Assembly: GCA_022264855.1 (NCBI GenBank)
Contig: JABYQU010000028.1
Span: 186,001 to 250,000, forward strand
Length of the DNA stretch: 64,000 bases
Direction: 5' to 3'
From: Lenzites betulinus
Lineage: Eukaryota > Basidiomycota > Agaricomycetes > Polyporales > Polyporaceae
The position numbers and the translations under genes are program-made. The notes beneath the pieces were generated by a model. It had not been told where the DNA came from, ran no database searches, and was given only the letters and a program-made list of their open reading frames with translations. This document shows positions 20,919 to 61,105 of this stretch, in pieces. Position 1 is the stretch's first letter, and every line of letters starts with the position of its first letter.

Positions 20919-21990
20919 GCCAATACTCTGTGCATCGTCCATCACTTTTTATCTGTTTTGTAGGGTATGAGGTGACAAATGTCAACGGACATTGTGGCTC
21001 GGGGAAGTCAAGCGATCCTGTATGCACCCAGTGTAATGTAACATGTCATTGCCAGTACTTTACCTCGATTACCGGAAACTAAATGGTTGTTATCTCCAAT
21101 TGTAGAGGCGTCACTGGATCTTTAATTCGACGCGTTGTGGTCGTCAACAGCCAACCCTGGTTTTGGTGATGGGTCGTGTATCTGTGCGCGGTCAGTGCAA
21201 AAAAGGACTACATGACCCTACCATGTTTCCCCACTCATGCATGCTACATTACCTCGCCTTCCCATGCTTCCCCCTTGTCTGTGCACTCTCCATCCTACAT
21301 CCACAATAGTGCCCCGGCCCCTCCCCTCTCTCACACTAAGTAACTACTGCAGCCTTTCGGCTCCCGCATGCATTTGCACTTCACCATTCACTAGTAACAC
21401 TAGTAAGTACCCAGTAGTAGGTACTAGTAGGGCTCCCGGTCGCGCCCAGATATTGGACGCTATCTCCAGCTGTCAGTGCAGCATTCTCACGTACTTGTAT
21501 GTATATATTATCGCGATGGGGTAATATAAGGTTGGCCGCATACACGGACCTCCTCATCACATGACTTGAGCGCCGGGAGACGTGACGAATGCTTGTAAAA
21601 TTATCTTGAATCCATGTAGTCCCTCAATCGTTATGGGATGACCGATTTTTTGTCAAGAATGTATATACGAACAACTAATCGGTTGCTCGGAGACGAGACG
21701 AGCGTGCCTTGAATTCGAGTTCTTTTTACAACGGATGATGTCCGTTTTGGGTGCAGTCACGACGTTGAACGCCCAGGATTAGCGCTGAGCGTATGGGGCG
21801 CGCTTGTGCATTAAGTGCGGGAGAACACAAAGTCGAGAACCAGCCGGGGAGGGGGGATGCCCAGGAAACGTGGTTCCGCATGGCGAACCGCCAACCTGGG
21901 CAAGCATGCTTGCAAGCGGGCTGCAGAAGAGGACGAAAATGAGAAAGAAAATGTGTGTTAGCAGAATACTACTCATCATAACAGCAGCAT
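20919..21990. other. Intergenic region before the retrotransposon
   Basis: No supported gene. There is a CTAGTA-rich patch near 21390-21440. This is the left flank of the Gypsy element; the five bases before its LTR are AGCAT. Confidence 0.5.
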
Positions 21991-22232
21991 TGTTAAGTTC
22001 ACGTGGGTGCTTTTACCGTGCCCAATTCCTAACGAAGTAGCTTGGTCCGGGCCTTTATTAGGCGGCGTACTCCGTGAGGATGGTGGGCGTTGGCAAAAGA
22101 CTTGCCCCACCAGGCGCCCGAGTCCCGAATACTCGGACGCCGTACGCGACTACGTATTACATAATAGAATGAGTTATTCTACGGGTAACAAATACCAGCC
22201 CTCGGGCTAAGTCCACCGGAGCGTCCCTTACA
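21991..22232 (-). repeat. 3' LTR of the Gypsy element (242 bases)
   Basis: In element sense it starts TGTAAGGGAC and ends CTTAACA. On the sense strand it holds CCTAATAAAG, a candidate polyadenylation signal. It matches the right LTR except for a single base seen near 22190. Confidence 0.95.
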
Positions 22233-22244
22233 CTCTCCCCCCCT
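22233..22244 (-). other. Polypurine tract of the Gypsy element
   Basis: On minus the bases directly before the 3' LTR read AGGGGGGGAGAG. This is the expected plus-strand primer for LTR elements and confirms the orientation. Confidence 0.85.
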
Positions 22245-22260
22245 AGACCCGACACGGGGT

Positions 22261-22891
22261 CTAATATGATAGTTAAAAGCTGCAAATATGAGCAGCAATA
22301 GCGCTTTAATATTAGGTGGTCAAGGGCAATCAGCCAACCAGCGTACGTTGGCTGCACCCCTGGTAGTATCATCAATACAGGCGGGTGAATGTCTAGCACT
22401 CATGCTAACGAGCGAAGGGATTGAGCTTCGGGCAAATATTAGCCCCATTTATAATACAGGCCGCGAATATAAGCGGCGATTGACCAGAAATGCCTGATGA
22501 GTTGGCTGGCCTCCAACGATAAATTCAATCCGCGCAGCAAGTCTGCGTGTTTAGTAGGTATATGGAGAGTTCAATAGCACGGTCTAATCCATTACTGGAT
22601 TTGGTGACGGTCGCGAATATAAGCGACAGTTGCCCTTGATTGAGTATTGTAGTCGGGTAGCTACAACACTTTGCTGCGAATATCGGCAGCGCGAGCCCTT
22701 AGTTGAGTCGAGGTAGTCGGGCAACTACACGACCTTGTTGCTGCGAATATGAGCAGCGATAACCCTTGATTGGACATTGTAGTCGGGTAGTTACAATGTC
22801 TGGCTGCGAATATAAGCAGCGCGGGCCCAATGCTAAGACGACACACTGGGCAAGGTGTGTCGAATAATTCCAACTGCGACATACGGCGGCG
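22261..22891. repeat. Array of covarying 8-base-loop hairpins in the 3' untranslated region of the Gypsy element
   Basis: Short perfect or near-perfect inverted repeats follow each other almost without gaps. Type A: stem of 4-5 bp closing GAATATAA-like loops at 22279-22296, 22430-22445, 22460-22477, 22610-22627, 22673-22690, 22740-22757, 22803-22820 and weakly 22874-22889. Type B: stems of 4-10 bp closing TCGGGTAG-like loops at 22647-22666, 22713-22728, 22773-22800 and 22839-22862. A further one at 22331-22354 has an 8-bp stem and 8-base loop. Type A stems differ (GCTGC/GCAGC, GCCGC/GCGGC, GTCGC/GCGAC, GGGC/GCCC) but always pair. From 22610 on, A and B alternate with a period of about 65 bases. 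This is direct reading; function is unknown. Confidence 0.85.
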
Positions 22892-22920
22892 TTAGAGAAC
22901 GGGATACGAGCGGCGGCCAT

Positions 22921-25254
22921 TTACGATGAGGCGGGATCACCCTCGTTAGCAAGCGGCGTGCTTGCTGAGGACTGCGATCCTCCAGTCACCGCGGGAGAGG
23001 TCCCGGCGACCACGCCGCCACCTGCGAGTCCCTGGTTAGAGCTCCCCGCGGCGGGACCGTCGGTCATCTCGGTGTCCTGGGGCTCCGGGGCATTGCCTAC
23101 TGGCAGCCCGAGAATAGGGGCAGGCGGAGCCGGCGTGGCCAAGAATGCGGTTGTAGGCGGGATAAGAGCATGAGCGGTTTGCAGCTCGAACAGATTAGGT
23201 ACCGCAAGCACGTCGGCTACCGCGTTCACCCCGGGGAACACGTACTGTGTCTCGGTGTAATCACGGCCGTGAAAGAGCGCTCGAGCTCGCCAGGCGGAGA
23301 CCTGTACACGATCGGCCAAATCGTACCCCACGCCCGCACTGGCGTACCATCGAGCGACATGGAACAGGGTGAGCTCGCCCTCGCGGTATGATCCTGCGAA
23401 TCGAGCATCGGGGGAGTATACGGGTTGCCGCGGGTAGTTCCCTCGCTGAACGATATGCCGATACAGCCCCTGGACGGAGAACAACTCCTGAGACAGAGAT
23501 ATCCATCGACCCCGGTCGTCGACCGATACACCCCGGCCCACGGGCCTGCGAATCATGAGATGCAGCTCTACATTCTCGGCCCGAGGCGCCCCGTCCATGG
23601 TGCCGTCCACACGCTCCATCCACGCGGGGATACGGCTCTGATGCAGCGACAGCCATTCAATCCAGCGGCTCACCGCGTCGGCCAATCGAGGCTGGTTGAT
23701 ACGAGGCTTGGCCGGTTCGGTCCACGTGCGGGAGGGTGGCGGCAGGTGTGCGGTAGACGTGGGGACTAGTCCCGGTGGAGTATATTGGGGGGATCCCCGA
23801 CGTCCATAACTACGAGCAGGGGCTGTCCCTAGGGGCGCGGACCGTCGATCAGGGTTGCGCCAGTGCTCGTTCAGCACTCGCAACCCTTGCACTCCCGTCA
23901 GCGCCGGGTTAGCCGCGATCTGGGCCAGGAGGTGTTGAATTCGATGACGGGCCTCGCCCATATCGGCGTGAGATGCGCTCATGAGCATTCTCGCATCCTC
24001 CGTGGTCACAGGCACAAAATTGTACCAATGCGACGCCAACCTTGCGTCAGATTCCCCCGGTACAGTCAGCATATTGCTGGGCCAGCCATCCGGTATCCGG
24101 ATTGTTGGCGCGTGCGGCCCATTCATGGTGAAAGCCGGGCCAGTTCCTGGTGCAGGTGGAGGCGGCTGGTCGCGCCGGGCATGACGGACTCGTTGTCGGT
24201 CGGACACCTTCCGGATCCGATCCACATCGTATACTTCATCCTCATCGGACTCGTCCGAGAAAGCCGTAAACTTGTCGAGCACGTCGCTTGACCGGCCCGC
24301 TTGAGGGTAGTCATCGTGGCGATCATCCTGTGTTCGGCGAGGAGGGGTCCGAATGCGTCCATGTCCTGAGTCCTGGCGGTCGCGCCGTGGGCTCATTTCG
24401 CGAGGATCGCGCTGTATATACCCAGACGAACCCGACCCATGAGTCACCGAAGTCAATGCCGATGATGGACGGATACTTTCCATTTGTCGCATCATTTGAC
24501 GTCGTTCGTCCTCCAACTCATTCACGCGTTCTCTCGCTGTGTTTCTCTCCGAGCGGTATCGCTCCCACAGCTCGCAGTCTTCTGCTGTCTGACGGCGATT
24601 CCTCGCCTGTTCTCGTTCTCGTGCCGCCTCCAACTCCTCTATCCTAGCGTTGGCCGTCGCTAATTCTTGAGCTACTCGCTCGGCCTCTTCCCTCGCCCTT
24701 CCCCCTTCAGAGCGAGCATGCTCTTCGAAGTGGCGCCAGAAGCGAGCCTGTAGCTCCCCTTGTACCGTAGTCTGGGCCTCTATGAAAGCCGCGTCGTTGG
24801 CCGCGGCCATGTAGTGCCGAATGAACTCGGCGCAGACAGCGCATCCAACAGTGTGAGCCACGAGCAATGGGTGCCCGGGCACTGCGGCCCATGATAACGA
24901 TGCTAGAGGCATCAGCGGCGGCATTCCGGGCGCCATTCCCATTTGTGATGGCGCTCCCATTGCTCCAGTCATCGTAGAACCCGGCCGAAATTGGCCTCCA
25001 GCCCCGTACCCATAGCCTACCGGGGGCTGCTGCAGGTATATGCCCTGCTGTGCCGATTGGCCCATCCCCGTCATGAATGTAGGCTGCATGGCCGTGAACT
25101 GGGCTTGTTGCGGGAACTGTCCAAACACCGGCATCATTGCCGTCGACGGCGTCGCCGCGTTCAAAGCCGTATTGGCCAAAGCGCTGTCTACCGCCATTTC
25201 GGCGGGGTTAGGAGGTCCAGTCTCGTCCGAGGGGTTCGTGTTGTCGGCAGGCAT
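22921..25254 (-). CDS. Third ORF of the Gypsy element, 777 residues, unknown function
   Basis: A single open frame between pol and the 3' LTR, in the position of env in retroviruses. It has no signal peptide, no transmembrane helix and no Cys-rich ectodomain, so I do not read it as an envelope protein. The N-terminus is Gln/Met/Pro/Gly-rich (about 1-130). Residues about 160-260 form a heptad-rich coiled coil ('ELATANARIEELEAARERE' and following). The middle is Arg/Asp-rich. The C-terminal third looks folded, with many Trp and Tyr ('VSRWIEWLSLHQSRIPAWME', 'GELTLFHVARWYASAGVGYD'). The last 60 residues are Gly/Ser/Pro-rich. An assembly or capsid-like accessory role is speculation. The intact frame argues it is maintained by selection. 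Confidence 0.8.
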   Translation of the reverse strand: MPADNTNPSDETGPPNPAEMAVDSALANTALNAATPSTAMMPVFGQFPQQAQFTAMQPTFMTGMGQSAQQGIYLQQPPVGYGYGAGGQFRPGSTMTGAMGAPSQMGMAPGMPPLMPLASLSWAAVPGHPLLVAHTVGCAVCAEFIRHYMAAANDAAFIEAQTTVQGELQARFWRHFEEHARSEGGRAREEAERVAQELATANARIEELEAAREREQARNRRQTAEDCELWERYRSERNTARERVNELEDERRQMMRQMESIRPSSALTSVTHGSGSSGYIQRDPREMSPRRDRQDSGHGRIRTPPRRTQDDRHDDYPQAGRSSDVLDKFTAFSDESDEDEVYDVDRIRKVSDRQRVRHARRDQPPPPAPGTGPAFTMNGPHAPTIRIPDGWPSNMLTVPGESDARLASHWYNFVPVTTEDARMLMSASHADMGEARHRIQHLLAQIAANPALTGVQGLRVLNEHWRNPDRRSAPLGTAPARSYGRRGSPQYTPPGLVPTSTAHLPPPSRTWTEPAKPRINQPRLADAVSRWIEWLSLHQSRIPAWMERVDGTMDGAPRAENVELHLMIRRPVGRGVSVDDRGRWISLSQELFSVQGLYRHIVQRGNYPRQPVYSPDARFAGSYREGELTLFHVARWYASAGVGYDLADRVQVSAWRARALFHGRDYTETQYVFPGVNAVADVLAVPNLFELQTAHALIPPTTAFLATPAPPAPILGLPVGNAPEPQDTEMTDGPAAGSSNQGLAGGGVVAGTSPAVTGGSQSSASTPLANEGDPASS

Positions 25255-25541
25255 GGTGTTGTTCGGTGCGCGGTAAGATGTAGCAGATGGTGGAAGAAGG
25301 TAGAGAGAGAGCAGGAGGCAGCCGACGACTTGCTGGCGCGGCCTTCACGCTGTACGGGTAGTCGACCCTTAGCGGTGAAGTACGAAGCGCTCTATCTCAG
25401 ATTCCACCACTAAGGCGCTTACGCGTCGCGTCGCGTCGTCACGCGTCAAGTCACGGGCATAGCGCGTCGTATATTCTTTTGTCAATTATCGTGGCGAGCA
25501 TCGCCCAAGTCCTTCCAATTCGTGCAAATATGCATTAGTCC

Positions 25542-28500
25542 CTATGGCGTGCGGGCTTTTGGTTTCCTTGGCAGTAACTGCCAGTTGTCCACGCCCATAA
25601 GCTGGCAATATCCATCGAGCGCCGCTAAGTCTTTGCAGTTATCGTATGGTTCCCAGGTATGATCGCCCAATGTCCAACGGACGTGAAATCGGCACTTATT
25701 GCCCTGCCATTCGTGGCCGATGATTTCGTCCACCAGCCACTCTGTGCTGTCGTCCTCCCCAATATCGTAGAACGCACGGGCTTCACGATGAGGAAACAGT
25801 GCATCGTCATTGGGCTCGTGAGGCCGGAGTAAGGATGCATGGAATCGCGGATGTATCCTTCTGGCCTTCATCTCAGGCGGTAGTTCCAGCGTATAGCTAG
25901 ACGTGTCGGGAAACGCTTCCGTAATTCGGAACGGCCCAATATATTTGGGCACCAGCTTTCGAGCTCTGCCCTTGGGCAGCGATAGATTTTTTGTGGATAG
26001 GTAGGCTTGATCGCCCACCTTGTATATTGGTTCCGCCGACCTATGCTTATTTGCATAATGAGTCTGTGCCACTCTTGCATCGATTATAGCATCATGAGCC
26101 GCTTCCACATTGGCTCGGGCCCTTACGGCGAATTCCCGTACACCCGCGAAGTGCGAGTTAGTATTGATACCATTCATGGTCCGAGGCAAGTATCCGTAGT
26201 TGAGCTCAAATGGAGCAAACTTGGTAGTAGCGCTTGACGCCGAGTTCAATGCAAACTCTACCAGTGGCAATTTCTGGTACCAATCCAGCTGATCTGGCGC
26301 CACGGTTGCACGCAATATCTGTGTTACTGAGCGGATAGTTCGCTCGCTTAATCCATCGGTCTGAGGATGGAACGCAGTAGACATGAGCAGTTTTGCTCCC
26401 ATTAGTCTATGAAGTTCTCGCCAAAACTTGGACGTGAATTTACTGTCTCGGTCCGAGACAATAGATTCCGGCAGCCCATGCAGCCGCACAACTTCTCGGA
26501 GATATATTAACGCCAATTCGGCGGCAGTATCCGTTGTTCGGATGGGTATCAAGTGGACCATCGACGTCAGTCGATCCACTACTACCCATATATAATCGCA
26601 ACCAAACGCGACCGGGAATGGCCCAACGAAATCCATAGAAATAGACTCCCAAGGCCGCCTGGGCACCGGCAGATGGTGTAATAGCCCGGCAGGCCGTTGA
26701 GTCGATGCTTTAGCCATGTGACAAATACCACAGGTGGTACAGAACTTATCCACATCTCGCCTCAAAGTAGGCCACCAGAACCATCTGCGGATGTATTCCG
26801 CGGTCCGTTGCGGTCCTAAATGGCCCAATGCTGTATGAGCTCGGTCTAAAATAAGTTCAGGAATCATCCTGCGACCGAATAACACTCGGGGAAGGCATAA
26901 CACTTCTTCATAATCACGATTTTTCGTGTATATTAGCCCATCGGGCTGTCGGAAGTTACGGTGGTGGTCCGGATTCTCCACTATCTTCCGAAACGTGACA
27001 TCGTGGCTATAACCCCGCCGAATGGCTTCCATCAGCCCATCCTCCATCTCCACATACGGGCGTAATGATGGCCCATTAGCCAGTGATTCCGATAGTGTTG
27101 GATTGGCCTCCTCATCCTGCGTTTCTCGCACCACTGGCCTGGGCTGATGCGAGGCGTACTCAGCCGCTTCTTCTTGCCGAGCTTCTACGGGCTCTCTCAG
27201 TTTACGGGCTGCTTCTGCCTCCGCTATCATGGCCATTTTCTTGGCAGTATGACGAATTATACGGCCGGCACCTAGTTCAAGTACTCGGGACTGGGGCAAA
27301 TCATCCCTATCAGGGTCTAGCCTGGCGTCGGCATTAACATATTCGTATTCCTCGAACAAGTCATGAGATCCATCGGCCTCATGATACCTCGACAAACAGT
27401 CCGCGACCTTGTTCAGGTGACCCGGTATGTACGATATCGTATAGTCGAATCGAGATAGGTACTCATACCAACGAATCTGCCTATTATTAGGCCGGGGAAC
27501 ACCCTTGAGAAATTCCAAGGCTCGATGGTCGGTCACTATACGGATTTTCCGTCCCAGTAGCTTGTCTTCCCACTTGAGTAGTCCTTCTAGGATGGCGAGA
27601 GCTTCTTGCTCGTAGGTTCTATAGGCTCTTTGTGCACTCGTCAATTTCTTTGACATGAACCCTGCAGGCCTGCAAGTCTGCCAATCCTGGCCTTGACCAT
27701 ACAACGCTCCTACTCCATACAGCGAGGCATCACAAATCAGCCATATTGGCTCTGGCTTATTAGGATCAATAGGCCGTAGAATGGGCACTTTACATGCTAG
27801 GGCTTTGATCGATTCAAAGCATTTATCATGTAAGGCCCGCCATATGAACGGCCGGTCATTATGTACCATGTCCGCTAACGGGGCAGTGTATGAAGTAACG
27901 TCAGGCATGAAATGCGCCAAGTAGTTGACTAGTCCTAAGAATCGTTGGACGTCGTGATATGTACGAGGCGTCCGCCAATGGCGGATACGGCTCATTTTGT
28001 CGGTATCTGCATGTAGCCCTCGGTCATCAATCCGATGGCCGAGACAGTCTAAGCTCTTCGAAAACAAATCGCACTTTTTGCGACTTAAGTATAGCTTCGC
28101 TTTACGGAGCGCATCAAACACGAGCTTCAAGTGCTCTTCATGTTCTGCCTTGGTATTGGAAAAGACGAAAATATCGTCTAGATACACATGTACGAATCGG
28201 CCTATAAACTCACGAAATATCGTGGTCATTAGTCTCTGGAAGGTGGATGGCGCATTCGTATCGCCTTGTTGCATGACTTCGCTCACAAACGTCCCAAAGG
28301 GCGTCGCGAACGCAGTTTTCCAGATATCCGACGCAATAATGCGAACTTGTTCATACGCATCGGATAAATCGATCTTCGAGCGATATTTGGCTCGGGCTAC
28401 GTCCATCCTGATTTGGTCCTGATCCGGGAACGGAGTCAAATCATGAACGGTATTGTCGTTACGCTGTCTTGCGTCAATGACAGTCCTTAGCTTGCCATCT

Positions 28501-29081
28501 TTCTTGGCTACACATAATAACGGCGCCGCTTGCGGCACGGTAGCTGGCTTCCACCAACCTGCCTTCACATATCTGTTAATCTTGGCCAATAGCTCAGTCT
28601 TTATAGACTCTGCGCATCTTGGCAGGTGATACTTGTATGTCTTATGTTCATCGATGAGTGGTATCTTATGATCTACCTCCCGGAATGGGGGCAGCTCCTC
28701 CGGCGGCGGCCGCATTATATCCTCCGTGGCCTTATACCACTTCTCCCGGAGCTTCTCTAGCTCGGCTTCTTCGTCATCCTCCACCGTAGCCATATGGCTA
28801 CTCTTGTCTCGTATCTCCTCCCATTGCCCTATAGCAATTTGTTCCATTACTCGGCCTATTCGGCGCTGATTCTCCTCCTTGGCTACTTTTAGCCGGTGTT
28901 CCGACGAATGCACCGAAGGCGGCATCTCTTCCATGATTACAGGCATTGAGCTATTTTTTGCCCGTCCTTGATGTCGAATTGGAATGTCTACGGCTTCCTT
29001 GCCGTCCCCTCCCCTTTCCATACTCGACTCTGAGAGCGCATGACGCGTGCGGGAGGGCTCCACCTTAGTGGATTGCGTCAT
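25542..29081 (-). CDS. Pol of the Gypsy element: reverse transcriptase, RNase H, integrase, chromodomain
   Basis: 1179 residues, uninterrupted. Reverse transcriptase: 'AAPLLCVAKKDGKLRTVID', 'SKIDLSDAYEQVRI', 'ATPFGTFVSEVMQQGDTNAP' and the active-site 'VYLDDIFVFS' (about residue 300). RNase H: 'WLICDASLYGVGALYGQ', 'YEQEALAILEGL' and 'IRIVTDHRALEFL'. Integrase: HHCC zinc finger (from 'HTALGHLGPQRTAEYI', then 'CTTCGICHMAK') and the D,D,E core ('SMDFVGPFP', 'IVSDRDSKFTSKFW', 'HPQTDGLSERTIRS'). At the C-terminus 'EWLVDEIIGHEWQGNKCRFH' followed by 'WEPYDNC' is a chromodomain, placing it among chromoviruses. The protease is not here but at the end of the preceding ORF. The ATG lies six bases after the gag stop, in the same frame. 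Confidence 0.96.
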   Translation of the reverse strand: MTQSTKVEPSRTRHALSESSMERGGDGKEAVDIPIRHQGRAKNSSMPVIMEEMPPSVHSSEHRLKVAKEENQRRIGRVMEQIAIGQWEEIRDKSSHMATVEDDEEAELEKLREKWYKATEDIMRPPPEELPPFREVDHKIPLIDEHKTYKYHLPRCAESIKTELLAKINRYVKAGWWKPATVPQAAPLLCVAKKDGKLRTVIDARQRNDNTVHDLTPFPDQDQIRMDVARAKYRSKIDLSDAYEQVRIIASDIWKTAFATPFGTFVSEVMQQGDTNAPSTFQRLMTTIFREFIGRFVHVYLDDIFVFSNTKAEHEEHLKLVFDALRKAKLYLSRKKCDLFSKSLDCLGHRIDDRGLHADTDKMSRIRHWRTPRTYHDVQRFLGLVNYLAHFMPDVTSYTAPLADMVHNDRPFIWRALHDKCFESIKALACKVPILRPIDPNKPEPIWLICDASLYGVGALYGQGQDWQTCRPAGFMSKKLTSAQRAYRTYEQEALAILEGLLKWEDKLLGRKIRIVTDHRALEFLKGVPRPNNRQIRWYEYLSRFDYTISYIPGHLNKVADCLSRYHEADGSHDLFEEYEYVNADARLDPDRDDLPQSRVLELGAGRIIRHTAKKMAMIAEAEAARKLREPVEARQEEAAEYASHQPRPVVRETQDEEANPTLSESLANGPSLRPYVEMEDGLMEAIRRGYSHDVTFRKIVENPDHHRNFRQPDGLIYTKNRDYEEVLCLPRVLFGRRMIPELILDRAHTALGHLGPQRTAEYIRRWFWWPTLRRDVDKFCTTCGICHMAKASTQRPAGLLHHLPVPRRPWESISMDFVGPFPVAFGCDYIWVVVDRLTSMVHLIPIRTTDTAAELALIYLREVVRLHGLPESIVSDRDSKFTSKFWRELHRLMGAKLLMSTAFHPQTDGLSERTIRSVTQILRATVAPDQLDWYQKLPLVEFALNSASSATTKFAPFELNYGYLPRTMNGINTNSHFAGVREFAVRARANVEAAHDAIIDARVAQTHYANKHRSAEPIYKVGDQAYLSTKNLSLPKGRARKLVPKYIGPFRITEAFPDTSSYTLELPPEMKARRIHPRFHASLLRPHEPNDDALFPHREARAFYDIGEDDSTEWLVDEIIGHEWQGNKCRFHVRWTLGDHTWEPYDNCKDLAALDGYCQLMGVDNWQLLPRKPKARTP

Positions 29082-29087
29082 GCTCCC

Positions 29088-32000
29088 CTATTTGACAGGA
29101 TTAGCCTTGTTCGGCACGCGATTCCCTGGCCTATACTCCTTCATCGCCGTATTGATAATTGGTTCTTTGAATAACGGTATCACCGTTCCTCTGACCACTA
29201 TCTGGTCACGGCCAAAATCTAAGAGCACTCCATGCTCGCGACAAAACACTGTTCCCAGTATGGCATCGTATCGGTCTATGTCGACAACGTCGAAGTAGTG
29301 TTCTTTCTTAACAGTTCCCACTGTCAAAGTAGCCCTTGCACCAAAATTAATGCGGGTCTTGCTACCCTTCGTGCCCAGTTGAAGCCCTACTGGCTCCTTC
29401 AAATCAACCCTGCTAGCTTTGCAGATATAGGCAAATTCCGGAGTAATAGAATCCGTAGTACACCCAGAGTCAAACAGCACAAGCGCCTTGACGTTGTTTA
29501 TCCATAGTTCGGCGCATAATGTACGCTGGCTGTCTAGCCTCCGTTGTGGTTGATCCCCATCATCCGTGGCCTTTCGCACTTTAGCGTCGTATAACCATGC
29601 GTGCCTCAAGCCCTTGTCTCTCGCTACGGCCATGCTATTAAGCCGTTCGGCCTCACCGACACCATCGTTTCGTAGGGACTCTACCCTCATGGCCCCAAAT
29701 AATACGGCGTCCCCGTAATCGTCTATTTCGCCTGGCGAGTCCGCCTCGTTCACATCGCTTTCGTACTGCGATCCGCCGTAGCCCGGTTCAGACTGGGGAT
29801 ACTCATCCTCATCGGGATATGTCTCCTCGTCCATGAGCCCTTCGGCTTCGTATTCACTAGCTTCCAAGGCTTTCTCGTCTGAGGCTGCCTGAGCGTTTAG
29901 CCCGCTATTCTCATGGTCCGAATTGTCATCCACTACTCTTTGTGCAAACATCTTCGGCCCAGCGATTCCTCGCTGATTGAATTTGGGACAAGTGGGGTCG
30001 GCCGCATAATGACCTATCTGTCCACATGCAAAACATTTCACCGTCGCTTTACTGGCATTCGGCTTATCAGTCCGTTGTTGAGGGGCATGAGGCGCAGCAG
30101 GCGGAGCTGAGGGCTTATTTGAGGCATTCACGCCTCGAAATCCTCGCCTACCAAACCCCCTAGACACGCTGCGAACAGGTCGCGAGGCTCCCTTCTCCGC
30201 GTCCTCCTTGGGTTTATTACCCTTGTGGTCATTAGCACTCTTGCTACTAGCAGGGTGTGCTGCAGTCGATGTCCTCGACTTTCGGCGCATTGCCATAGAC
30301 CGTGAGTTTTGCTCTAGGTCCAATGCTGCTTGATACAGCTCCGTCAATGAATTATACTGCACGGACAGGCCGTTATATACAGTCAACAATTCCTCGAATC
30401 GGTCGGGCAACGCGTCCATGAATTTCTGACGTTGTTGGAACTGAGTGGGAGTCTCCCACATGCGCTCTGCATGATATAATAATCGTTCGTATAACGAGGC
30501 AACTCCGCCCTTCTCGGCACTATACTGCAATTGTTCAAATTCATGAGCGGCGACCATATGGATGTCCCGATGTATAAACCGGCGATATAGGCCGACGATG
30601 GCCTCGTCAAACCACCAATCGCGTTTATCGCGTGAAGGGGATCGAATGGTATTCTGGAACCAAGTGGCTGCGTCGCCGCCCAGGCAGGTGCCTAATATTC
30701 GCACTCGATCCCCGTCCAGCTCAGGACCTGTAATTCGTAATGTACTAAAGTATTCCAGCAGATTCTGGAGCCAAACTATAAACCCATCTGGGTCATCCTT
30801 GCCCTCAAATGCCTTGGGCACCGCCAATTTGGCTACTTTAAGATATGCTGGCGGCGCCGTGGTAGGTGGGTCGGCTACCGACTCTTGAATCATGTCCAAT
30901 ATACGTTGGACGCCTTGTATATCCCTGGGTCCGTTTCCAGGCACAAGGTAGGCCAGATCGTCCCGTCCAGCCATGGCACCAGGCGTTTGCCCCGCCGCTG
31001 AGCTCATCCGATTGTCCGGAAATCGAGAAGGGGCCATGGATCGGCGGGACCGTAAAGGGTCCGCTCTGGCGAATACGGAGATCGAAGGCATGGTGGTACG
31101 CCGAAATGGCGTAGTCGAAGCGGACGATTCATCGCGGCTTTCCGCGGCTCCAGTACGTCTGCGGCGCAAGTTAGCGGAGTCGAATGCCACGCTTCTTCGT
31201 GGCTCTGGAATGTCCAGCGGGCTACGAGTGGTTGTAGCCGACAATAACGGCGTGTTATTGGGCGGAGCAGGCGCACTTCTGGAGGGCCCAGACACGTCGG
31301 ACTTAGCTAGTCCAGCTGCGGTTAGCCGTTGGAGCCGGCCGTGTTTCAGCCTTTCATGAGGATCAACATCCTCGTCCGACTGTCCTACTTCTGAGGCAGC
31401 GTCCAATAGTTCCCCTTCTACCTCGTCCTCCTCGTCCCGATGCCATTGCCTAGGAGATCCTTGGGAAACGTCTACTGCGGGCGTTTCAACATGCACATCA
31501 GCATATCCTTCCGGGATGTCTCCATCTTCGCCGTCTTCGGCGATTCTTCCCAGTAGGTCGGATACTTGAGCATTAAGCTCGTCCTCTGCTCGTTGCACTT
31601 CCAGGCGCAGCGTCGAAAATCTGCGTCTCGACGCCTGTAACAATGATACCAGCTGAAGTGCTGACGACTGGCTTATAGCCATGTTTGGGCCAATTATTGG
31701 TGAGGACCGGGGACTAACCATGCCTACCGGCATATCATCTACCGGCTCGGCCTCCTTGTCTAACTGACTAGGCGGTCGAGATCTCACAGATACATTGGAC
31801 ACTCGTGCCGAATGGTATCCTTCAGTTCGAGATGACGGCCGTGGAGCGGCCCGGCCCTTGCCCTTGTCGGCCGCGGAAGTCCTGCCCCTCGTAGTTTCCA
31901 CATGTAGGGCAGAGCTCAATCCCAGCTGACTAGCTGTTGGCACATCCTCCGGAGTAGATCCCGGCGACACCCGGGGAAATTGGTATGACTCGCGGCGATC

Positions 32001-32180
32001 TACGCGACTATGGGCTCTAGTCGCGGCCTGAGAGCCTGTTTGTGTAGGCGATTCCCGCCTGGAGGCACTCGGCCTGTAAGGTCCAGCACCACTCGTGGTG
32101 ACTGGACCCGAGGGAGTCGTCGGGCGCGACGATCGAGATGGCCTTCTGCTGCTGGCCGGGAAGTTCCCAGGGACTTCCAT
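29088..32180 (-). CDS. Gag-protease of the Gypsy element
   Basis: 1030 residues, uninterrupted. The first 400 residues are Ser/Arg/Pro-rich and disordered. A gag capsid domain follows (about 440-640; 'VPKAFEGKDDPDGFIVWLQN', 'DWWFDEAIVGLYRRFIH'). A zinc knuckle lies at about 713-728 ('CFACGQIGHYAADPTC'; spacing C-x2-C-x4-H-x6-C, slightly longer than canonical). An acidic linker precedes a retropepsin-like protease at about 890-1010 with the active-site 'LVLFDSGCTTDSIT'. The frame ends in UAG, and pol starts two codons later in the same frame. Processing by its own protease is expected from the family. Confidence 0.94.
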   Translation of the reverse strand: MEVPGNFPASSRRPSRSSRPTTPSGPVTTSGAGPYRPSASRRESPTQTGSQAATRAHSRVDRRESYQFPRVSPGSTPEDVPTASQLGLSSALHVETTRGRTSAADKGKGRAAPRPSSRTEGYHSARVSNVSVRSRPPSQLDKEAEPVDDMPVGMVSPRSSPIIGPNMAISQSSALQLVSLLQASRRRFSTLRLEVQRAEDELNAQVSDLLGRIAEDGEDGDIPEGYADVHVETPAVDVSQGSPRQWHRDEEDEVEGELLDAASEVGQSDEDVDPHERLKHGRLQRLTAAGLAKSDVSGPSRSAPAPPNNTPLLSATTTRSPLDIPEPRRSVAFDSANLRRRRTGAAESRDESSASTTPFRRTTMPSISVFARADPLRSRRSMAPSRFPDNRMSSAAGQTPGAMAGRDDLAYLVPGNGPRDIQGVQRILDMIQESVADPPTTAPPAYLKVAKLAVPKAFEGKDDPDGFIVWLQNLLEYFSTLRITGPELDGDRVRILGTCLGGDAATWFQNTIRSPSRDKRDWWFDEAIVGLYRRFIHRDIHMVAAHEFEQLQYSAEKGGVASLYERLLYHAERMWETPTQFQQRQKFMDALPDRFEELLTVYNGLSVQYNSLTELYQAALDLEQNSRSMAMRRKSRTSTAAHPASSKSANDHKGNKPKEDAEKGASRPVRSVSRGFGRRGFRGVNASNKPSAPPAAPHAPQQRTDKPNASKATVKCFACGQIGHYAADPTCPKFNQRGIAGPKMFAQRVVDDNSDHENSGLNAQAASDEKALEASEYEAEGLMDEETYPDEDEYPQSEPGYGGSQYESDVNEADSPGEIDDYGDAVLFGAMRVESLRNDGVGEAERLNSMAVARDKGLRHAWLYDAKVRKATDDGDQPQRRLDSQRTLCAELWINNVKALVLFDSGCTTDSITPEFAYICKASRVDLKEPVGLQLGTKGSKTRINFGARATLTVGTVKKEHYFDVVDIDRYDAILGTVFCREHGVLLDFGRDQIVVRGTVIPLFKEPIINTAMKEYRPGNRVPNKANPVK

Positions 32181-32268
32181 GTTCTATTCGAAATAGTCAG
32201 TAGTCACTGATGACGTGTACGTCGCCCAGTGAGGCGTAGCTGTAAAGCTTCACGGAAAGCTAAAAAAG

Positions 32269-32510
32269 TGTTAAGTTCACGTGGGTGCTTTTACCGTGCC
32301 CAATTCCTAACGAAGTAGCTTGGTCCGGGCCTTTATTAGGCGGCGTACTCCGTGAGGATGGTGGGCGTTGGCAAAAGACTTGCCCCACCAGGCGCCCGAG
32401 TCCCGAATACTCGGACGCCGTACGCGACTACGTATTACATAATAGAATGAGTTATTCTACGGGTAACGAATACCAGCCCTCGGGCTAAGTCCACCGGAGC
32501 GTCCCTTACA
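32269..32510 (-). repeat. 5' LTR of the Gypsy element (242 bases)
   Basis: Matches the left LTR except for one base seen near 32467. The inner flank in element sense reads CTTTTTTAGCTTTCCG, without a recognisable tRNA-complementary primer site. The outer flank is GTACC. Confidence 0.95.
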
Positions 32511-34513
32511 GTACCACACAAAGGCAGATTACCCACAGGACAAAGGCTGCGTTCATCCGGCCGCTGCTTGAAGCATTCCGTAGCTTCAGCACTCCCAGTG
32601 GTGCATGGTACAGAACACAGCCTTGCTATATAGATCCTTGCTAACAAGACGTAGCCCCATTGCCTGGTACCCTCGCACTCTAGCTGTGATGTTCGCACCT
32701 TGCACCCTCAATTCTCCTACGATATCCTGTCAGCAAGCATGCACGGATAGGGTAGACTCACACGTGTACGCTCAAAAACCAAGATGGCCTTGCTCCTGGC
32801 CAGCAAACACACAGAGCTGTACACGTCACCGTGAAGTTATACGCACAATCCCCAGAAGCACACCGGTACCCAAGCCGTTGTTCTTTGCACCCCACCCCTC
32901 CGCACAACCCACGGTCGTCATAATGTGTACCCAGAATGACGGTCTCCATCGTGTTCATCAAGGACACGAGACCACTGGTGCATACGTTGTTAGCGCGTGT
33001 CCGTTGATATCCGCGGAACCAATATTGCGCGGGACATCGTTGCTCGGAGGAAGAGAGTGCGTAGATGCGAAGGTGATGGCTTTGCCAACTGTCAGCGCGT
33101 GGAGGAGCTCGCGTGATTCAAAGGCCCAGTCCTGCGCAACAGCGGGCAGGGTGATCAGGACGCCCGCAGTGCCGTGGTGGCTGCCCAGAAAGAGCACGCA
33201 CCTCATTGTTGCGCAATGCCGTCCCCATGTGCGGCGTCTGGATATCAGCGAGGTGCAGGATGCTAACGTGTTCACGCCGGGATGTCAGTGCACACAACCA
33301 CCAGGTGGGACACACAATCGCATACCACTCCTTGGGATCTGGCCCCTGCGGCCCTGGGTTTCCGCACAAGAGGAGGAGGTCACCACTGCTGGATACTCGG
33401 TGATGTTCAGGGTAGGGCACAGGCATGCAGACGCGTTGGGAACCCATACATTTCACGATCTGGGGAGCAATGGATACCAGATGTCGATTAGCCAGTGTCT
33501 TGCGCTCGACAACCTGTACCTTTTGCAATGGGGTGCTTACCGCTTTCATAGACATGGCTGGAGCAGTACAGACCATTATACACATGGAAAGCTAAAGAGC
33601 GGGCGAACAAGCAGCAGAGTGAGGGGGTGTGGAGCGGTGGGTTGTGGTGCCAGTGCTGGCGGACGGACTGCACTTGCTTTTACGGGCCTCGCCCATGAGG
33701 TAGCATATGTCCTTCACCCAGCGGTGCATGGACATCCAGTTTACGATTGACGCGACAACATTGTCGAGGCTGAGCGCTGTGAGCGTCTCGCAGGGGCACT
33801 CTTCCGGCCGTGAGCGAGTAGAGCAGGGATAATCAATGTGCGCGAGGCGGAAAAGACGGAGGATTGCCAGTACGGCGGGGGTCTCGAGTCCAGAGACCGG
33901 AGCAGGGAAGTGTTGAGGGACATCGCATAATCACCAGCGACCTCCGGGTGATCGGAGGACGTAGTCGGAACTGGCGAGTGACGTCCTCGACGTGCTCATG
34001 CACAATCCAAGGCTTCAAATGAGCTGAATCCACTAGGGCAGAGAGGTCAAGGCAAGGAAGGCGCGGCAGAGGCCAAATGGATGATACTGGAAGTAACGGA
34101 GCTCAGAGAGAGCTTGTAATGTTGACTGCGCCACCAACATTTAACATAATATGTCTATAAATGTGCGCGAAGGAGTGCCAGGAGTAGAGATCAGGAATCT
34201 CGCGTGTTTGGGGCGTCTAACAGGAATCCAACGGGCGCTTTGAAGCTGACCAGTCCCGGTTGCAGTACTAAACTCATCCGTTGTCGGACCGTCCAAACTC
34301 ACGTTTTTCATCAGCGGTTATCCCATTGCACGATAAAAGCACGCTTGAAATATGATAATCGCGGTACAGTAGAGTAGAGATTAATGAAATAAGTACGTAG
34401 CATCGATGGCAGAGAATAGTGTGTTGAACCGTGGACTGTGTAATAATGATAAGTAGAACAGGAATGATATGCCTGGGTGAGAAATTCTCTGAGACTAGCG
34501 ACGAAGAATGTGT
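32511..34513. other. Right flank of the retrotransposon; possible gene relic
   Basis: On minus, about 33.0-33.6 kb, two frames carry GC-rich, coding-like segments ('SSGDLLLLCGNPGPQGPDPK' and, in another frame, 'GVLITLPAVAQDWAFESREL'). They cannot be joined by splice sites I trust. I read it as a decayed gene of unknown family. The 34.0-34.5 kb part is AT-rich and empty. Confidence 0.35.
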
Positions 34514-35805
34514 TTACGCGGTGCCGCGCAGTTGCGCGTCGTCGTCCTCCGCGTCCATCGTAGACCCCGCTCGCGAGCTCCCCGTGTGCTCGTTGTCAGA
34601 GTCACGATCGTAGTCCGCCTCATCTGCGTCCGTGTCCTCCGACTCCTCCGAAGGAGGCGCCAAAGTCTCGGCCGGGGCAGCAGCAGCATCCGCGAACGGG
34701 TGCACCCAGTCGTCTGCGCTCGACGCCGAGTACATATTGCTCCTCCGCGACACGCGAGCGGAAATGCGCGGCTGCGACGTGATCAGGGGCGAGGCGTAAC
34801 CTGCGGGCGAGGGAAGGGCGAAGAGTTGAGGAGCGACCAGTGGAGAGGCGTATCCCGCGGGCGAAGGCAGAGCAAAGAGCTGCGCGCCCGCGTGGCCATG
34901 ACCGGGAGTGGTGAGCGCGCTCAGGGCCACGTCCTCGGAAGGAATAGACGAGCCGCCGTGGCCGTGGCCGCCCGTGACTGTGGGGGTGGCGAGGTGTGCG
35001 AGTGCGGCGGCGGAGGGGATGACAACGCGGATCGACTGGGAGCGTGTCGACGAGCCGCGCGGGGTGGATGTGGTGGAGAGCGGAGCGCTGTGGGTCTGGG
35101 GAACCTGGCTGGAGGAAGCGGTCGACATTGTTTGTTGCGGAGGGAGAAGCGGTCGAGTAGTAGATGATGAGAGAGACTACGAGGGGCTTCGACTGGGCCT
35201 GAGAGTGTGGAGGTGAGTGAGGATCGCAACGGTGCGCTCATCTCTACTTATACCGTATGCATCCCCACACAAACTGTAACGTATCTGATTGTACGAGAAA
35301 CTCCCATTTGACAGCCACAGCTTCGCGTGGGGCGTAACAGGACATATCGCGCTCATACGGCCGGGCGTTGCAAGCTGAAACGCGACGGCATAACGGATGG
35401 CGACGCCACCCCCGATTTGACGTCGCGCAGCGTGCGGAGGAACGGCGCGCCACGGGCAATGAGGCTTGTCGTGCCTGCCCTGCGCCCTGGAACGATGCCG
35501 GGCAGCGAACAGAGTCGAGGGCGGGAGACAGACGGCATCGCGCCATGCACCGCCAGTGCCATCAGAGGCGTTTGGCGGTGCAAAGTACGCGGGAGCGCCT
35601 AGCTCCTTGCTCGCCATCTGCTCTGTAGTGGATGGACGCCGTATGGACGCCCATTTACGGGCTTCGTTCCATGTTGAGATCTGCACCGCCGGCCCTGACA
35701 GCTTCTTGTTTTCATAGGGAGCTTCGAGATCTCGCACAGATCCGGGATTCGGCTCCCGCGTGGTAGACCACCGCTTCTTCATTGCGGACGCAATGCGCGT
35801 GTGAG
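34500..35805 (-). repeat. Duplicated block A (inverted relative to 39075-40330)
   Basis: Reverse complement of about 39075-40330 with small differences. It carries the small-protein gene, its TATA region, and an upstream stretch ending at the palindromic word 'gcattgcgtccgcaatg' complement near 35790. The upstream part continues to about 37.9 kb as a match to 58.23-60.57 kb. Confidence 0.85.
34514..35128 (-). CDS. Small His/Gly-rich, acidic-tailed protein, copy 1 (204 residues), function unknown
   Basis: Single frame, no intron. I do not recognise the family. The N-terminal 45 residues are Ser/Thr-rich. The centre holds 'TGGHGHGGSSIPSEDVALSA' and 'TPGHGHAG'. Next comes 'QLFALPSPAGYASPL', present twice in tandem here but once in copy 2, an in-frame duplication of about 16 residues. 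A short basic stretch ('SARVSRRSNMYS') precedes an Asp/Glu/Ser-rich tail ('EESEDTDADEADYDRDSDNE'). No membrane segment or signal peptide. A TATAAG box lies 124 bases upstream on minus (35247-35252). The copies differ mainly in the Ser/Thr-rich part and agree almost fully from the GHGH motifs on, which suggests constraint or gene conversion. Confidence 0.7.
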   Translation of the reverse strand: MSTASSSQVPQTHSAPLSTTSTPRGSSTRSQSIRVVIPSAAALAHLATPTVTGGHGHGGSSIPSEDVALSALTTPGHGHAGAQLFALPSPAGYASPLVAPQLFALPSPAGYASPLITSQPRISARVSRRSNMYSASSADDWVHPFADAAAAPAETLAPPSEESEDTDADEADYDRDSDNEHTGSSRAGSTMDAEDDDAQLRGTA

Positions 35806-38800
35806 TCGCCGGTGAGATTTACCTGGTCAGTGTCCGCGTTTCTGGAGGCTCAGGGCATGACACGAGTCGCGGCATGACTTTCGCAGGGCCAGCCATAGGC
35901 CGTCGGGCAGCCGACACGAGCTCTGCGGTGAGACGTGCATCGATTGCGCTATCCGTTCGAGGTCTAGATTTGAGAGCGTACGTTGGGTGGGTTGGACTGG
36001 GACGCGCCTTAACTCCGCTACGGGCTGTTTCAGCACACGGGCTCGCGCCGAGGGCCCGGACGACTGATTGTGCTACGTCCGGCGAAGCCTCTCGTCGGGA
36101 AGCTACACGTGCGCCTAGAGTCGGGTCGTATATGCTTCTGCTTCGTGTTCTCCGCGAAGAATGTGCTTGGGTGACCACGATGCGTTCGTCACTGGGTGGT
36201 GGCCGGACACACTGCGGGTAGCCGCTCATGGACCGTCAAGGACTCAGCGAGCTGTAGAGGAACGCGTACCGGAGGGTCAACACATTGTCGTCGTGCTATC
36301 GCGGTCAAACCTTGGGCGGAAGCAGTCTTCGCGCGGCGAAGCCTCCAACCTGGCCTGTTGTGGTGTTACATGCGCATGGGCACACCCTGAGAGACGTTGT
36401 GGGTTAGTGATAGGCTGGATGTGTTAAAACTACGACCGAAGCGAAGAGAGTGGAGTACGTTCCACCAGCGCATTAATCTATCTCTTCAGCGACGCATCGT
36501 GTGTTACACAATGCGCGCCGGGCACTGGGAAGCGTCGAAGAGCGAAAATCGCTCGCAGAGGTCCTCGCCCATCCCACGATTTGCATGATGCAGCGGGGAG
36601 CTCGTGGTCAGCCGGCAGAAGGAGGCAGACTGAGCGTTCGCTGACCTCTTCATCGAATGTTCTGTCCACCATCAGTACTGCAGCTCGCATGCATGCGCAC
36701 AGCGCGAGGTAACAGCAAAATCGATATCCCGCCGATCTACCGTGCGTCGTAGGGCCATCATCCATGCGGTTGACGCCTACAAACCTGTAGCTTGGCGAAC
36801 GGCGTCCTGGTCCGTTGTGGCTAACCGTTTGCTAAAGTTGTCAGATGAAATGGTGCTGCGCACTACGCACACGATCGTCTTGGGCGCACTTGGGTGAGTG
36901 GCTTTCGCCATGCGGCGGTTCTGTAACATCCGTGGGGGGCTGTGCGTGCCGAAGGTTTGATTGTCATAATCGCAGCGTCGAAGTTGAGAGTTCAATTAAT
37001 GGATTTGCACGGCCCAAAGTTTTGGCTAGGATTGGCCGGGGTGTCCTTCGCTCTGCGCAGCATACCATGCATACTACACCGATCAGCCAAGAGGACGCGG
37101 TCCCGCAATGCACAAATCAGAAGTGAACGTACTCTTCAACTAAAGCCACGTTTGCGAAGTGTATCCCACATCCACTTGCTGCCGACGTCAATACGACATC
37201 TAGGTGAGTACGGTGGCCCGGAAAAGGTCTGTTTTCGGACTAGGGGGAAACTCCCATGAGCCGCTATTAGAAGGAAAGTCGCACATGTGCACGCAGCGCT
37301 CACCCAGGTTCTGTGCAGGCAAGTTCTTGACGCGAGGCTAAGGCTCTGATGACATGCAGCTATCGTTCTGCTGGCCACCACGATGATCACAGGTGGTGTA
37401 CATCCCGCGAATAGAGGCTGAAATCGAGGTGCGGGAGGGGTTCGGGGTGGTGCCGCAGCATTTGGTAGTAGAGGTTCCAATTAGACCTATACACGTTGCT
37501 TCTGCAACTGAGGAGTTCAGATGAGGCTTCGATACGCCTGAAAGAGGTTGACGAAGTTCGCGAGCTCGAGATCACAAACAAACACGACGCACATTTGCCC
37601 GCAGTTCCCCTCTAGGACAGGCTTGGATCAGCCACAGAACTGGATTACTGTCGACAACCTGGTTCTGAGGCTGGTTCAGGTCCTGAAGCCTGTTTAGAAC
37701 GTTATTGATTGGATAACAAAGCAGCCTACAGTTGCTATTTGTGCTTTGTTGTCAGAGCTCCAAGCCTGTCTCTGGCCCGGAACCAGGAAACCAGCTTTGG
37801 GCCTGTTCCTACCCTGTTTTGGACCAGAGCCTTGGCCCATTGCGCGTCGTGAAAGCGCATGCGAACACGATAGACTTGAGCCGACATGCTGCTGCGCGGG
37901 CTTTGGAGTCAAGAGGACCTGGAGGCAATGTATAATGAGGGCGGAGTGAGTAAGTTCAACTGAGCAAGGAAAGCAGATAATCGGAGTTTGGAAAGGAAGG
38001 CCATTCAGGGCGCTTGCCCGTTCAAAGAGCGGTATTAATAGTACTTGATTAGTACCAGTTAGTACATTATTAATGTGTTTGCCGTACCTCCTTTAGTGAT
38101 CAACCATGTTCTAACAATCTTCGTGCTCTGCCACTGACTATCAGCGGAACCTTGGCCTTCACTCGCATGCTTCGCCTTTTGTCCGTTCCACCTTTAGGAG
38201 CATCTATCGATTGCGGTTTGTCGCGGTGCACACCCACAACGTAGTGCTCTTGCCAATCGTTCCGGGTGTCCTGGCTACCTGGCTACTGTTTATCATGCTT
38301 TGCGGTTGTTCCCGCAGTTTTTTGGAGACGCTCTGCTGGAGCTCCGATCAACCGCCTCCAACGCAAGAACTTGAAGGATAGACCTGGTTGGTTTGCTCGC
38401 GCGGACACCGGTTTGGGCAAGGGGTCCTAAGCGTTCCGGGGAATCCGACACTACATATTGACGAACAATAGGTATGCACAGAGGACTCAATGTGACGCAT
38501 AGACTGATCATGCAACTAGACGACATATCATCTTGCGAGGACAACGCGCGTCACGACCACACGCAGCGTCGTAATATTCATGTCCTCGCCCTCGTCCGTG
38601 CCTTCGACGCCAGAGGAGGGCCAGTCAACACGTTCGAAGGCTCGTCGAAAAGGGGATTTGTAGTAGAGCGCGAACAAAATGCAGGCGGCCACTCACCGTC
38701 GCGTAGGCGTTTAGACATATCCACCGAGCTTCGCGCGTGCACCGTCTCGCGAGTGCGAAATGCCTTGAACGCCATCCGCGGTGATTTCGGTATGCAGGTT

Positions 38801-42793: not shown

Positions 42794-43207
42794 CGCCTGT
42801 GACAGGCCCGGAGTTCAGGACTTAGTGTTGTACCACACCCACGCAGTGCGATATGACCGATACCTGGAGGCTGGCGGTGCGATACTGCGGGGATAACATT
42901 AGTAGGAATTGGGCCGCTTTCCCTCAAGGCACGTCCCTCGGTTAGGACAGGGTGGCGAGTCATCGCCTCGCCGCGGCGAATACATGAGAATTCCACACCG
43001 TCGGTACTATTGGAAGCGGTACACTGCAGCAGGAGACAGGTTGGCGCGGCACGAAATATAGTCGTGCTTCCGACGAACAGTCGATGCAGACGGCGATGAA
43101 TCCAAGATATTATCAATATATTGTTTCGCTTCCGAATCTGTTGAGTAGTAGCCCCTTTCTTACGATCGTCCCCACTATCGATGTAGTATCCTGAACTTCT
43201 GTTGCAG

Positions 43208-43836
43208 AGAAGGCGCTCGGAGAAGGCACAGTTGGAATCGTACACTCCGGAGAGTCCTGCAACGAGCCTTAGTAACAAAGGTACGCGAACTTCATGCCAT
43301 GCTCTTACTCTTGACGTGCTCACACAACCTATCAAGGCCATGGTCAACCCTCTTCGTCAGGGACTGCGTCGCCGGTTCCATCGACGAACGGAGGCTCATC
43401 TCCCAGGCCAAACAAAATTCCTTCCATCTTTACTATCCATCATGCTGTCTGCGACATCAACACACCTGGGGCCGTCACTGTCGATCTGGGGCTGCCTCAT
43501 GCTGATTCTACGCTGGCTCAACACCCCACCTTCCCCCCGATCTCCAATGCCCACGTCCAAAACCTACAGAACCAACTGTCTATGGCTTGCTCGCTCCTGC
43601 AAGCATTCAACGCCGCCGTCTCACGTTCAAAACGGCCCAAGCGCCATTGCCGCGGCGGCTCCGGTATGAAGAAGTTCGCGCGCCACTTCCATCGGACGTA
43701 CGCGTCCAAACTTCTACGTGGCGCAGGGTTCCCGCGCGAGATTGTGATCGACCCCGAGTCGTTGCTACCTCTTCGGGAGGACGCCACCGACTCGGACGCG
43801 GACGATTACGAGGACTGGGACGATACGAAGGAGTGA
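43208..43836 (+). pseudogene. Truncated copy of the small membrane-protein gene
   Basis: It matches exons 3 and 4 of the complete gene at 61106-62245. Exon 3 starts 'RRRSEKAQLESYTPESPAT'. After an intron ending near 43.34 kb, exon 4 runs to the stop at 43834-43836 with 'HVQNLQNQLSMACSLLQAFN', 'GGSGMKKFARHFHRTYASKL' and an acidic 'DSDADDYEDWDDTKE' end. The intron before exon 3 is still recognisable, but its donor is changed and the first two exons, including the membrane helix, are absent upstream of about 43.14 kb. Confidence 0.65.
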
Positions 43837-60594: not shown

Positions 60595-61105
60595 CACACT
60601 CACGTTCAAGGCATTCGGCGATGTTCTGCTCTGTAGTAGTGCTGGGAGATGATTCCTCTGTGTTCTGTTTGATATACATAGGTAGTTACAAATACGGGAG
60701 GGGGACTTGAAAGCGACGAGAGACCGAGACGCCTGAGTGGCAGCGAAAACCAGACATGATGGAATATCGAGAACATGAGTTTCTTGTGTACATAGCATGC
60801 GAAGAGGTTGAAACGGTGTGCAGAGATGGCGTAGTGGCGCGAGAGCATGAAGAGGGCAACTCGGAAATTTGTGCCATAAGACGACTCGGAGAGCAAGCGG
60901 GTGAAGTGAGAAGGAAGGGTAGGACAGCGGGAGGCTAAGGAGCTGGTGTATCCAGAATAAACGATCACCGTTTATGCATGTGCGATGACATCTTGTCATA
61001 TTCATGCAGTCGGTACTGCGAGCCAAGTTCGAAGATTCGGCGGAGGACGGGCTGTCGAGCACAACAGTGTGTGGTGACTGTGTCATGCACCCCTGGCGTC
61101 CGTCC
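60595..61105 (-). repeat. Inverted copy of about 43.84-44.33 kb
   Basis: Noncoding part of the larger inverted duplication 41.8-44.33 versus 60.6-64.0 kb; shared words include the stretch near 60.63 kb with 'gcagaacatcgccgaatg' on minus. Homology to the 44 kb copy ends at about 60.595 kb. Confidence 0.75.

Follow-up and report, generated by a model that had tools for sequence, protein, structure and literature searches.

We describe an array of short hairpins in the 3′ untranslated region (UTR) of a Ty3/Gypsy retrotransposon of the polypore Lenzites betulinus. The element is encoded by the minus strand of a 64-kb window (GenBank assembly GCA_022264855.1, contig JABYQU010000028.1, positions 186,001 to 250,000), and all coordinates below are those of the window. 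It has the two long terminal repeats (LTRs), the Gag, and the pol order of reverse transcriptase (RT), RNase H and integrase that characterize Ty3/Gypsy elements, and its LTRs (5′ LTR, 32269-32510; 3′ LTR, 21991-22232, 242 bp, TG...CA) are 99.6% identical in a BLAST self-comparison. The first open reading frame, ORF1 (29088-32180, 1030 aa), encodes a Gag with one knuckle-like CX2CX4HX6C, its spacing read by eye, and a retroviral-type protease; all three Pfam matches, those to the knuckle and the protease included, score under the curated cutoffs. ORF2 (25542-29081, 1179 aa) is the pol, with the RT, RNase H and integrase. ORF3 (22921-25254, 777 aa) has no family match, and carries an HxxxCxxCxxxxxH motif, a long predicted coiled coil and a predicted helical C-terminal domain. 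A polypurine tract, GGGGGGGAGAG, can be read directly at 22233-22243. All of these features are on the minus strand, which is the element sense strand.

The hairpin array occupies positions 22244-22862, between ORF3 and the polypurine tract, within the 691 nts (22233-22923) that go from ORF3 to the 3′ LTR. Read in the sense direction, ORF3 is followed by a B1 and an A hairpin, then by modules consisting of a B hairpin, a GGG linker and an A hairpin, then by a spacer, a middle A hairpin, a C hairpin, a last A hairpin, and a hairpin at the polypurine tract. Module 1 (22803-22862) has its B1 hairpin at 22839-22862 (stem CGACACAC/GTGTGTCG), a linker with TTGGGC, and its A hairpin at 22803-22820. 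Module 2 (22740-22800) has the B hairpin at 22773-22800, a linker, and the A hairpin at 22740-22757. Module 3 (22673-22734) has them at 22707-22734 and 22673-22690, also with a linker in between, and module 4 (22610-22670) at 22643-22670 and 22610-22627 (GTCGC/GCGAC) with the GGG linker. Past the spacer we find the middle A hairpin, GCCGC-TTATATTC-GCGGC (22460-22477); an A-like unit, GGGC-TAATATTT-GCCC (22429-22446), which among the four lineages compared below is tabulated only in that of the window; the C hairpin (22321-22362), with an inner stem CAGCCAAC/GTTGGCTG, a loop GTACGCTG and an additional outer stem; the last A hairpin, GCTGC-TCATATTT-GCAGC (22279-22296); and the hairpin adjoining the polypurine tract, TAGACCC/GGGTCTA (22244-22263).

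The original prediction, made from the sequence of the window alone, had placed such an array at 22261-22891, with two loop classes alternating about every 65 bases from 22610 on, nearly all loops of exactly 8 bases, and each stem pairing with its own partner. The alternation is as described, since from 22610 to 22862 the A hairpins start 63-67 bases apart and the B hairpins 64-66. The two classes exist, but there is a third one, the C hairpin, as well as the hairpin at 22244-22263, with which the array begins slightly outside the proposed range. The 8-base loop holds for the named units, but only for 10 of the 21 inverted repeats of the stretch. And the stems generally pair with their own partners, with two exceptions among the B units: at 22773-22800 the loop is closed by an A.C mismatch, and at 22707-22734 the stem contains internal mismatches and a 6-nt loop is another possible reading.

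Seven copies of the element in the same genome carry the array, in all of them next to ORF3, and in all of them the same polypurine motif closes the 3′-UTR. Relative to the window copy (C30), the copies C54 and C100 are 99% identical, C33 79%, C53 and C81 73%, and C90 78-81% in three partial matches. Because C54 and C100 have a common 3′ flank, and C53 and C81 have near-identical 3′-UTRs (in different flanks), we count the seven copies as four lineages. The number of modules, where B1 together with its A hairpin counts as one, is 4 in C30, 4 in C33, 3 in C53 and 2 in C90. Across these lineages the A loop is TNATATTY on a GC/GC closing pair in 20 of 22 tabulated units, collected with a looser expression that already demanded part of that pattern; the exceptions are CGATATTC in C30 and TAATGCTC in C33. 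The loops B2 to B4 are NNRCCC(G/C)N on GTAG or GTAA/CTAC stems in nine of nine units, a pattern that the collecting expression itself demands. The B1 loops have 7-9 nts and contain GCCCA, and the C loop GTACGCTG is found in all four lineages.

The density of hairpins is far above chance. In the 691-nt stretch, 21 stems of 5 bp or more pair perfectly around loops of 3-15 nts, compared to a mean of 7.0 and a maximum of 16 in 1000 dinucleotide shuffles. For stems that close an 8-nt loop, of which the stretch has 10, the same shuffles have a mean of 0.52 and a maximum of 3, so that an equal density of 8-base-loop repeats is not reached in sequence of the same composition. When the plus strand of the whole window is scanned using 691-base windows with a step of 345 (n = 184), we observe 0-3 hairpins with 8-nt loops, and 8 in each of two windows on the array. 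Elsewhere, C33 has 8 such hairpins, C53 has 8, C90 has 5, and a copy (C63) of a distant family described below has one.

A and B hairpins are nearly confined to this element family. In searches of the 37.4-Mb assembly, where counts are lower bounds because the best candidates were scored, 32 of the 36 exact matches to the A pattern, among the matches listed, are inside the seven array copies (8 matches for the reversed pattern), and by eye the other 4 do not have five paired bases. For the B pattern, 12 of 12 matches listed are in arrays, with none for the reversed pattern, and a looser B pattern has 12 of its 13 listed matches in array copies. The C-hairpin pattern, allowing up to two mismatches, is less specific: it has 28 matches versus 24 for its reversed control, where all 6 matches without mismatches belong to array copies, C90 appears at two mismatches, and the remaining 21 are at the level of the control. 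A model (R1) built on nine modules, three of them from the window, matched the four window modules as well as 22279-22339 and 22460-22517 (the middle A hairpin), and found nothing better than an E-value of 0.11 in 22 other loci. In viral contigs, 37 stretches have one A pattern each and one has a B pattern, which we take as chance. The possibility that these are a mobile mini-hairpin family is not supported by these counts, as the pattern is near-absent outside the array elements among the matches listed. Searches of titles and abstract openings, with few subscription journals covered, did not find a report of such an array in LTR elements of fungi.

What happens in relatives that are further away? 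A distant ORF3 family has 28 rows that are 33-45% identical over the matched part (43-45% for the long ones). Of 15 loci examined, 13 have a short 3′-UTR with one A-like hairpin, GGCCAC-TGCTATTT-GTGGCC, and a hairpin at the polypurine tract similar to that of the window; the other 2 have neither. Seven Gypsy loci that do not have ORF3 show no array in the 4.9-6.5 kb behind the pol match, only single relaxed matches, where for 3 of the seven the pol match is partial and the true 3′ end may be elsewhere. Two near-family pol pieces (C81:57872, and C19:36981, which is truncated) have no A hairpin in the 4.2-5.1 kb behind them.

Is this a conserved structure, or only a set of repeats? We evaluated covariation on nine of the 13 modules (the four B1 modules were excluded), with 15 named pairs and thus 135 cells, comparing to shuffles that ignore the relatedness of the rows, and with a structure drawn from those same rows, which favors itself. 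Standard pairs occupy 90.4% of the cells versus 77.8% in shuffles (0 of 500 as high), and sliding the frame by 1-3 columns reduces pairing to 13-53%. Eight of the 15 pairs are altered on both sides (5.2 in shuffles, 9 of 500 as high), and 23 cells have both-side changes (8.9 in shuffles, 0 of 500 as high). For the C hairpin, with four sequences and 60 cells, 98.3% are paired versus 93.1% in shuffles, and both partners are altered in 5 of 15 pairs, a count that 3 of the 500 shuffles reach. The source of the covariation is not the same for all stems. The A stems are nearly the same at a given position between lineages and different between positions, so that their covariation is between positions; for the B and C stems it is between lineages too.

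The rates of change also set the hairpins apart from the downstream spacer. Between C30 and C33, the change per site is 0.06 for the A stem (a figure that takes in a unit found only in C30), 0.06 for the C stem, 0 of 16 for the B1 stem and 0.22 for the B stem, and none of the 8 positions of the C loop has changed. The downstream spacer, with 0.33 per site, changes faster than any hairpin part, so the hairpins are the better conserved of the two. Judging from the sequences, the array exists and selection maintains its pairing, because its relatives within the genome show compensated stems, as opposed to stems drifting without compensation, and because its density is far over that of shuffles. 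This is the selection on structure that had been originally suggested.

The modules also keep their identity by position. Each of the three repeat modules of C30 is closer to its C33 counterpart (0.82, 0.75, 0.80) than the three are to one another (0.61-0.72), and the last C53 module resembles the last C30 module (0.82). Others have no clear partner: the second C53 module is at 0.72 and 0.73 to two C30 modules, and the C90 module at 0.54-0.67. From the closer match by position than within C30, it follows that the modules are old and have drifted apart under a pairing constraint, and this speaks against a mechanism that renews the hairpins, also proposed at the start. Tandem Repeats Finder reports nothing at score ≥ 40 in 22233-22923, because the module copies are too diverged. 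That the array is a neutral tandem duplication whose complementarity arises by chance is highly improbable. Such a duplication would account for a module that repeats every 63-67 bases and varies in copy number, but not for both-side changes that keep the pairs, nor for the positional identity that most modules hold between lineages, nor for the density of hairpins.

As for what the array does, we propose that it is a multivalent docking site in the element sense RNA for a protein encoded by the element, so that this RNA would be marked for export from the nucleus and for packaging. We give this proposal, which goes beyond the sequence comparisons, a probability of about 45%. The working form would be RNA and not DNA, and the loops would be what gets read, as loop patterns kept on changing stems suggest a reader that recognizes hairpins formed by a single nucleic-acid strand, while the repetition of the module suggests a multivalent reader. 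That reader may be either Gag by means of its knuckle, or ORF3, and the outcome would be the selection of the element RNA for export and packaging. In favor of the proposal, the mean predicted pairing of the named stems is in each of the four lineages somewhat higher in sense than in antisense (0.82 and 0.75, 0.82 and 0.75, 0.99 and 0.87, and 0.82 and 0.73), and the array accompanies ORF3 in its seven copies, with none in the sequence covered of the seven loci without ORF3. At least 11 relatives of ORF3 (with the best 8000 candidates scored) are found, including Lenzites and Trametes, and the HxxxCxxCxxxxxH motif is present in 11 of 12 aligned proteins. The motif and the predicted coiled coil would suit multimerization on repeated sites. 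The predicted model of ORF3 has a helix of more than 100 residues and a helical C-terminal domain, with low confidence (mean pLDDT 55.5); comparisons to PDB sequences and Pfam give weak matches, mostly to the coiled-coil stretch, and no ORF3 relative was found among 21 viral-contig stretches. A more elaborate version, which we consider unlikely, is an RNA identity code in which two alternating hairpins plus a third would be read cooperatively by ORF3, in a system for the export and packaging of genomic RNA similar to Rev/RRE or to CERV, whose dosage would be adjusted as modules are gained or lost.

Several observations count against the docking site. Conservation of the loops does not exceed that of the module linkers: in the C30 to C33 comparison the change per site is 0.18 for A loops and 0.25 for B loops, compared to 0.17 for the linkers and 0.12 for the stretch before the array, and loops changing as fast as linkers weaken the proposal. 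The number of further pair types in the nine modules is ordinary (14 vs. 12.4 in shuffles, 133 of 500 as high), and the comparison comprises four lineages of a single genome. The strand is not distinguished either by wobble pairs (in the B and C stems in sense, G.U 8 vs. A.C 4, P = 0.39) or by folding energies, which are low on both strands. Some hairpins are predicted to pair weakly in context, two A hairpins of C30 with 0.28-0.29 and the C90 B hairpin with 0.28. The fold search with ORF3 has no match at E ≤ 0.001 in PDB or in a viral library. The distant ORF3 family gets by with a single A-like hairpin in place of the array, which is therefore not an absolute requirement of either ORF3 or Gag. 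And if the ORF3 mRNA has the same 3′ end, the array could not distinguish it from the genomic RNA.

An alternative that keeps the RNA but changes the reader is that the array is an export or stability element recognized by host proteins, similar to a constitutive transport element. Its location, behind the last ORF and ahead of the polypurine tract, would be suitable, and export elements with multiple stem-loops are described in retroelements in the available text of PMC11379458. We find it rather unlikely, since Rfam has no match in 21900-23000 at E ≤ 10, and thus none to a transport element catalogued in that database, and since it leaves unexplained a repeated two-hairpin module whose number varies by lineage. 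Quite unlikely is that the array joins RNAs, with the CCC of the B loops pairing with the GGG of the linkers or with the 5′ leader and resulting in pseudoknots, circles or dimers. All 13 tabulated B and B1 units do have CCC in the loop and GGG 6-10 nts behind the stem, and TGGGCGA is present in each of eight leaders from the seven contigs that carry an array. These flanking pairs, though, do not covary: the units with their own partners score 20 versus a mean of 18.8 with permuted ones (P = 0.34, 13 units), or 12 versus 11.1 (P = 0.39, 9 units), and by eye the self-complementarity of the A loop is just four AU-rich bases.

Because neither wobble pairs nor folding energies tell the strands apart, the inverted repeats could instead act as DNA, either as cruciforms or as sites for a DNA-binding protein. 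This is improbable. The outer arms vary in matched pairs while the loop patterns persist, whereas the arms of a site bound by a dimer would be preserved. Cruciforms are not favored either, as extrusion is poor for short arms with loops of 8 nts.

Other parts of the element and of the window deserve mention. LTR positions 63-242 in sense (21991-22170) are 96-97% identical in the C53, C81 and C90 copies, although their 3′-UTRs are only 73-81% identical, and in most distant ORF3-family rows they are 78-81% identical over some 105-125 bases. By eye they form two adjacent long hairpins with stems altered and yet still paired, possibly a second conserved RNA domain. The 5′ leader (32180-32268, minus strand) is nearly invariant across lineages. 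It contains CGCC-TCACTG-GGCG and, after it, GACGTACACGTC; in a single leader from the distant family, the equivalent place is taken by a hairpin GCCC-ATATTTG-GGGC. No tRNA primer site is obvious by eye behind the 5′ LTR. The gap between ORF2 and ORF3 (25255-25541, minus strand) keeps CTTCACCGCTAAGGGTCG...GTGAAG in the four lineages with a variable middle, and then a pyrimidine-rich stretch before the ORF3 start; an additional RNA element is one possibility here, and an internal promoter another. We also considered kissing between the A loops and a GAATATA in this gap and rejected it, as the window copy has GAATATA and by eye the gaps of the other lineages do not.

The chromovirus label given originally is not confirmed, as Pfam at E ≤ 0.001 finds the RT, RNase H and integrase with an SH3-like tail and no chromodomain. 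By eye, the integrase tail has an appearance that we take to be chromodomain-like. No target-site duplication is found around the window copy, whose 5′ flank is GGTAC and 3′ flank is ATGCT (flanking sites 21976-21990 and 32511-32525). The C100 copy has them reversed, 5′ ATGCT and 3′ GGTAC, and C54, with the same 3′ flank as C100, has a different 5′ flank. The swapped 5-mers mean that two insertions have undergone a reciprocal exchange, or else that identical elements have led to a mis-assembly. Two other pairs of inverted repeats in the window, 35382-37580 with 58316-60567 and 43189-44344 with 60596-61774, are 86-88% identical.

In what follows, statements about other systems apply to the available text of each source. 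The 3′-UTR of alfalfa mosaic virus is a linear array of stem-loops with a short repeated flanking motif and several independent sites for the coat protein (PMC9414508). The array described here is also a linear 3′-UTR array of hairpins with a short repeated linker motif; in contrast, that is a plant RNA virus with an AUGC motif where we have a GGG linker, and binding is demonstrated there and putative here. Common ancestry is not claimed. The constitutive transport elements of the MPMV type and the MER11 element are, like the array, structured parts of a retroelement RNA that lie toward its 3′ end (PMC11379458), but their description there does not include a repeated two-hairpin module, the array has no Rfam match, and its role in export is putative. 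The genetic layout of the array element resembles that of Cer1 of C. elegans, in which CERV, with domains predicted as coiled coils, is needed for the export of genomic RNA (PMC10309623). The likeness is one of layout. CERV is spliced to exons shared with Gag, and the term stem-loop does not appear in the main text on Cer1.

Plant Retand elements have family-specific repeats between the coding region and the 3′ LTR, of origin and function stated there as unknown (PMC11963269). The main text of that source does not use terms for hairpins or secondary structure, and the copies in our array are too diverged for Tandem Repeats Finder. In Ty3, a zinc-finger motif is critical for packaging, and the packaging of RNA depended on UTRs or POL sequence; both Ty1 and Ty3 have, as is proposed for our element, cis-acting RNA near the ends, but the Ty1 signal is at the 5′ end, the Gag binding sites are stated to be imprecisely defined, and a hairpin array is not described in that text (PMC4974528). 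We do not claim membership in the alfalfa mosaic virus type of array, in the transport elements or in the Cer1/CERV system; the likenesses, by analogy, are of form, of place and of layout, respectively.

Even for Ty1 and Ty3, the way in which LTR retrotransposons choose their RNA is poorly defined, according to the available text of PMC4974528. A short, repeated and covarying hairpin module would be a compact candidate for RNA selection, and one that is open to test. The array also separates structured RNA from tandem repeats next to the 3′ LTR, two things that are easily confused, as the sequence of its repeats has diverged and the pairing is kept.
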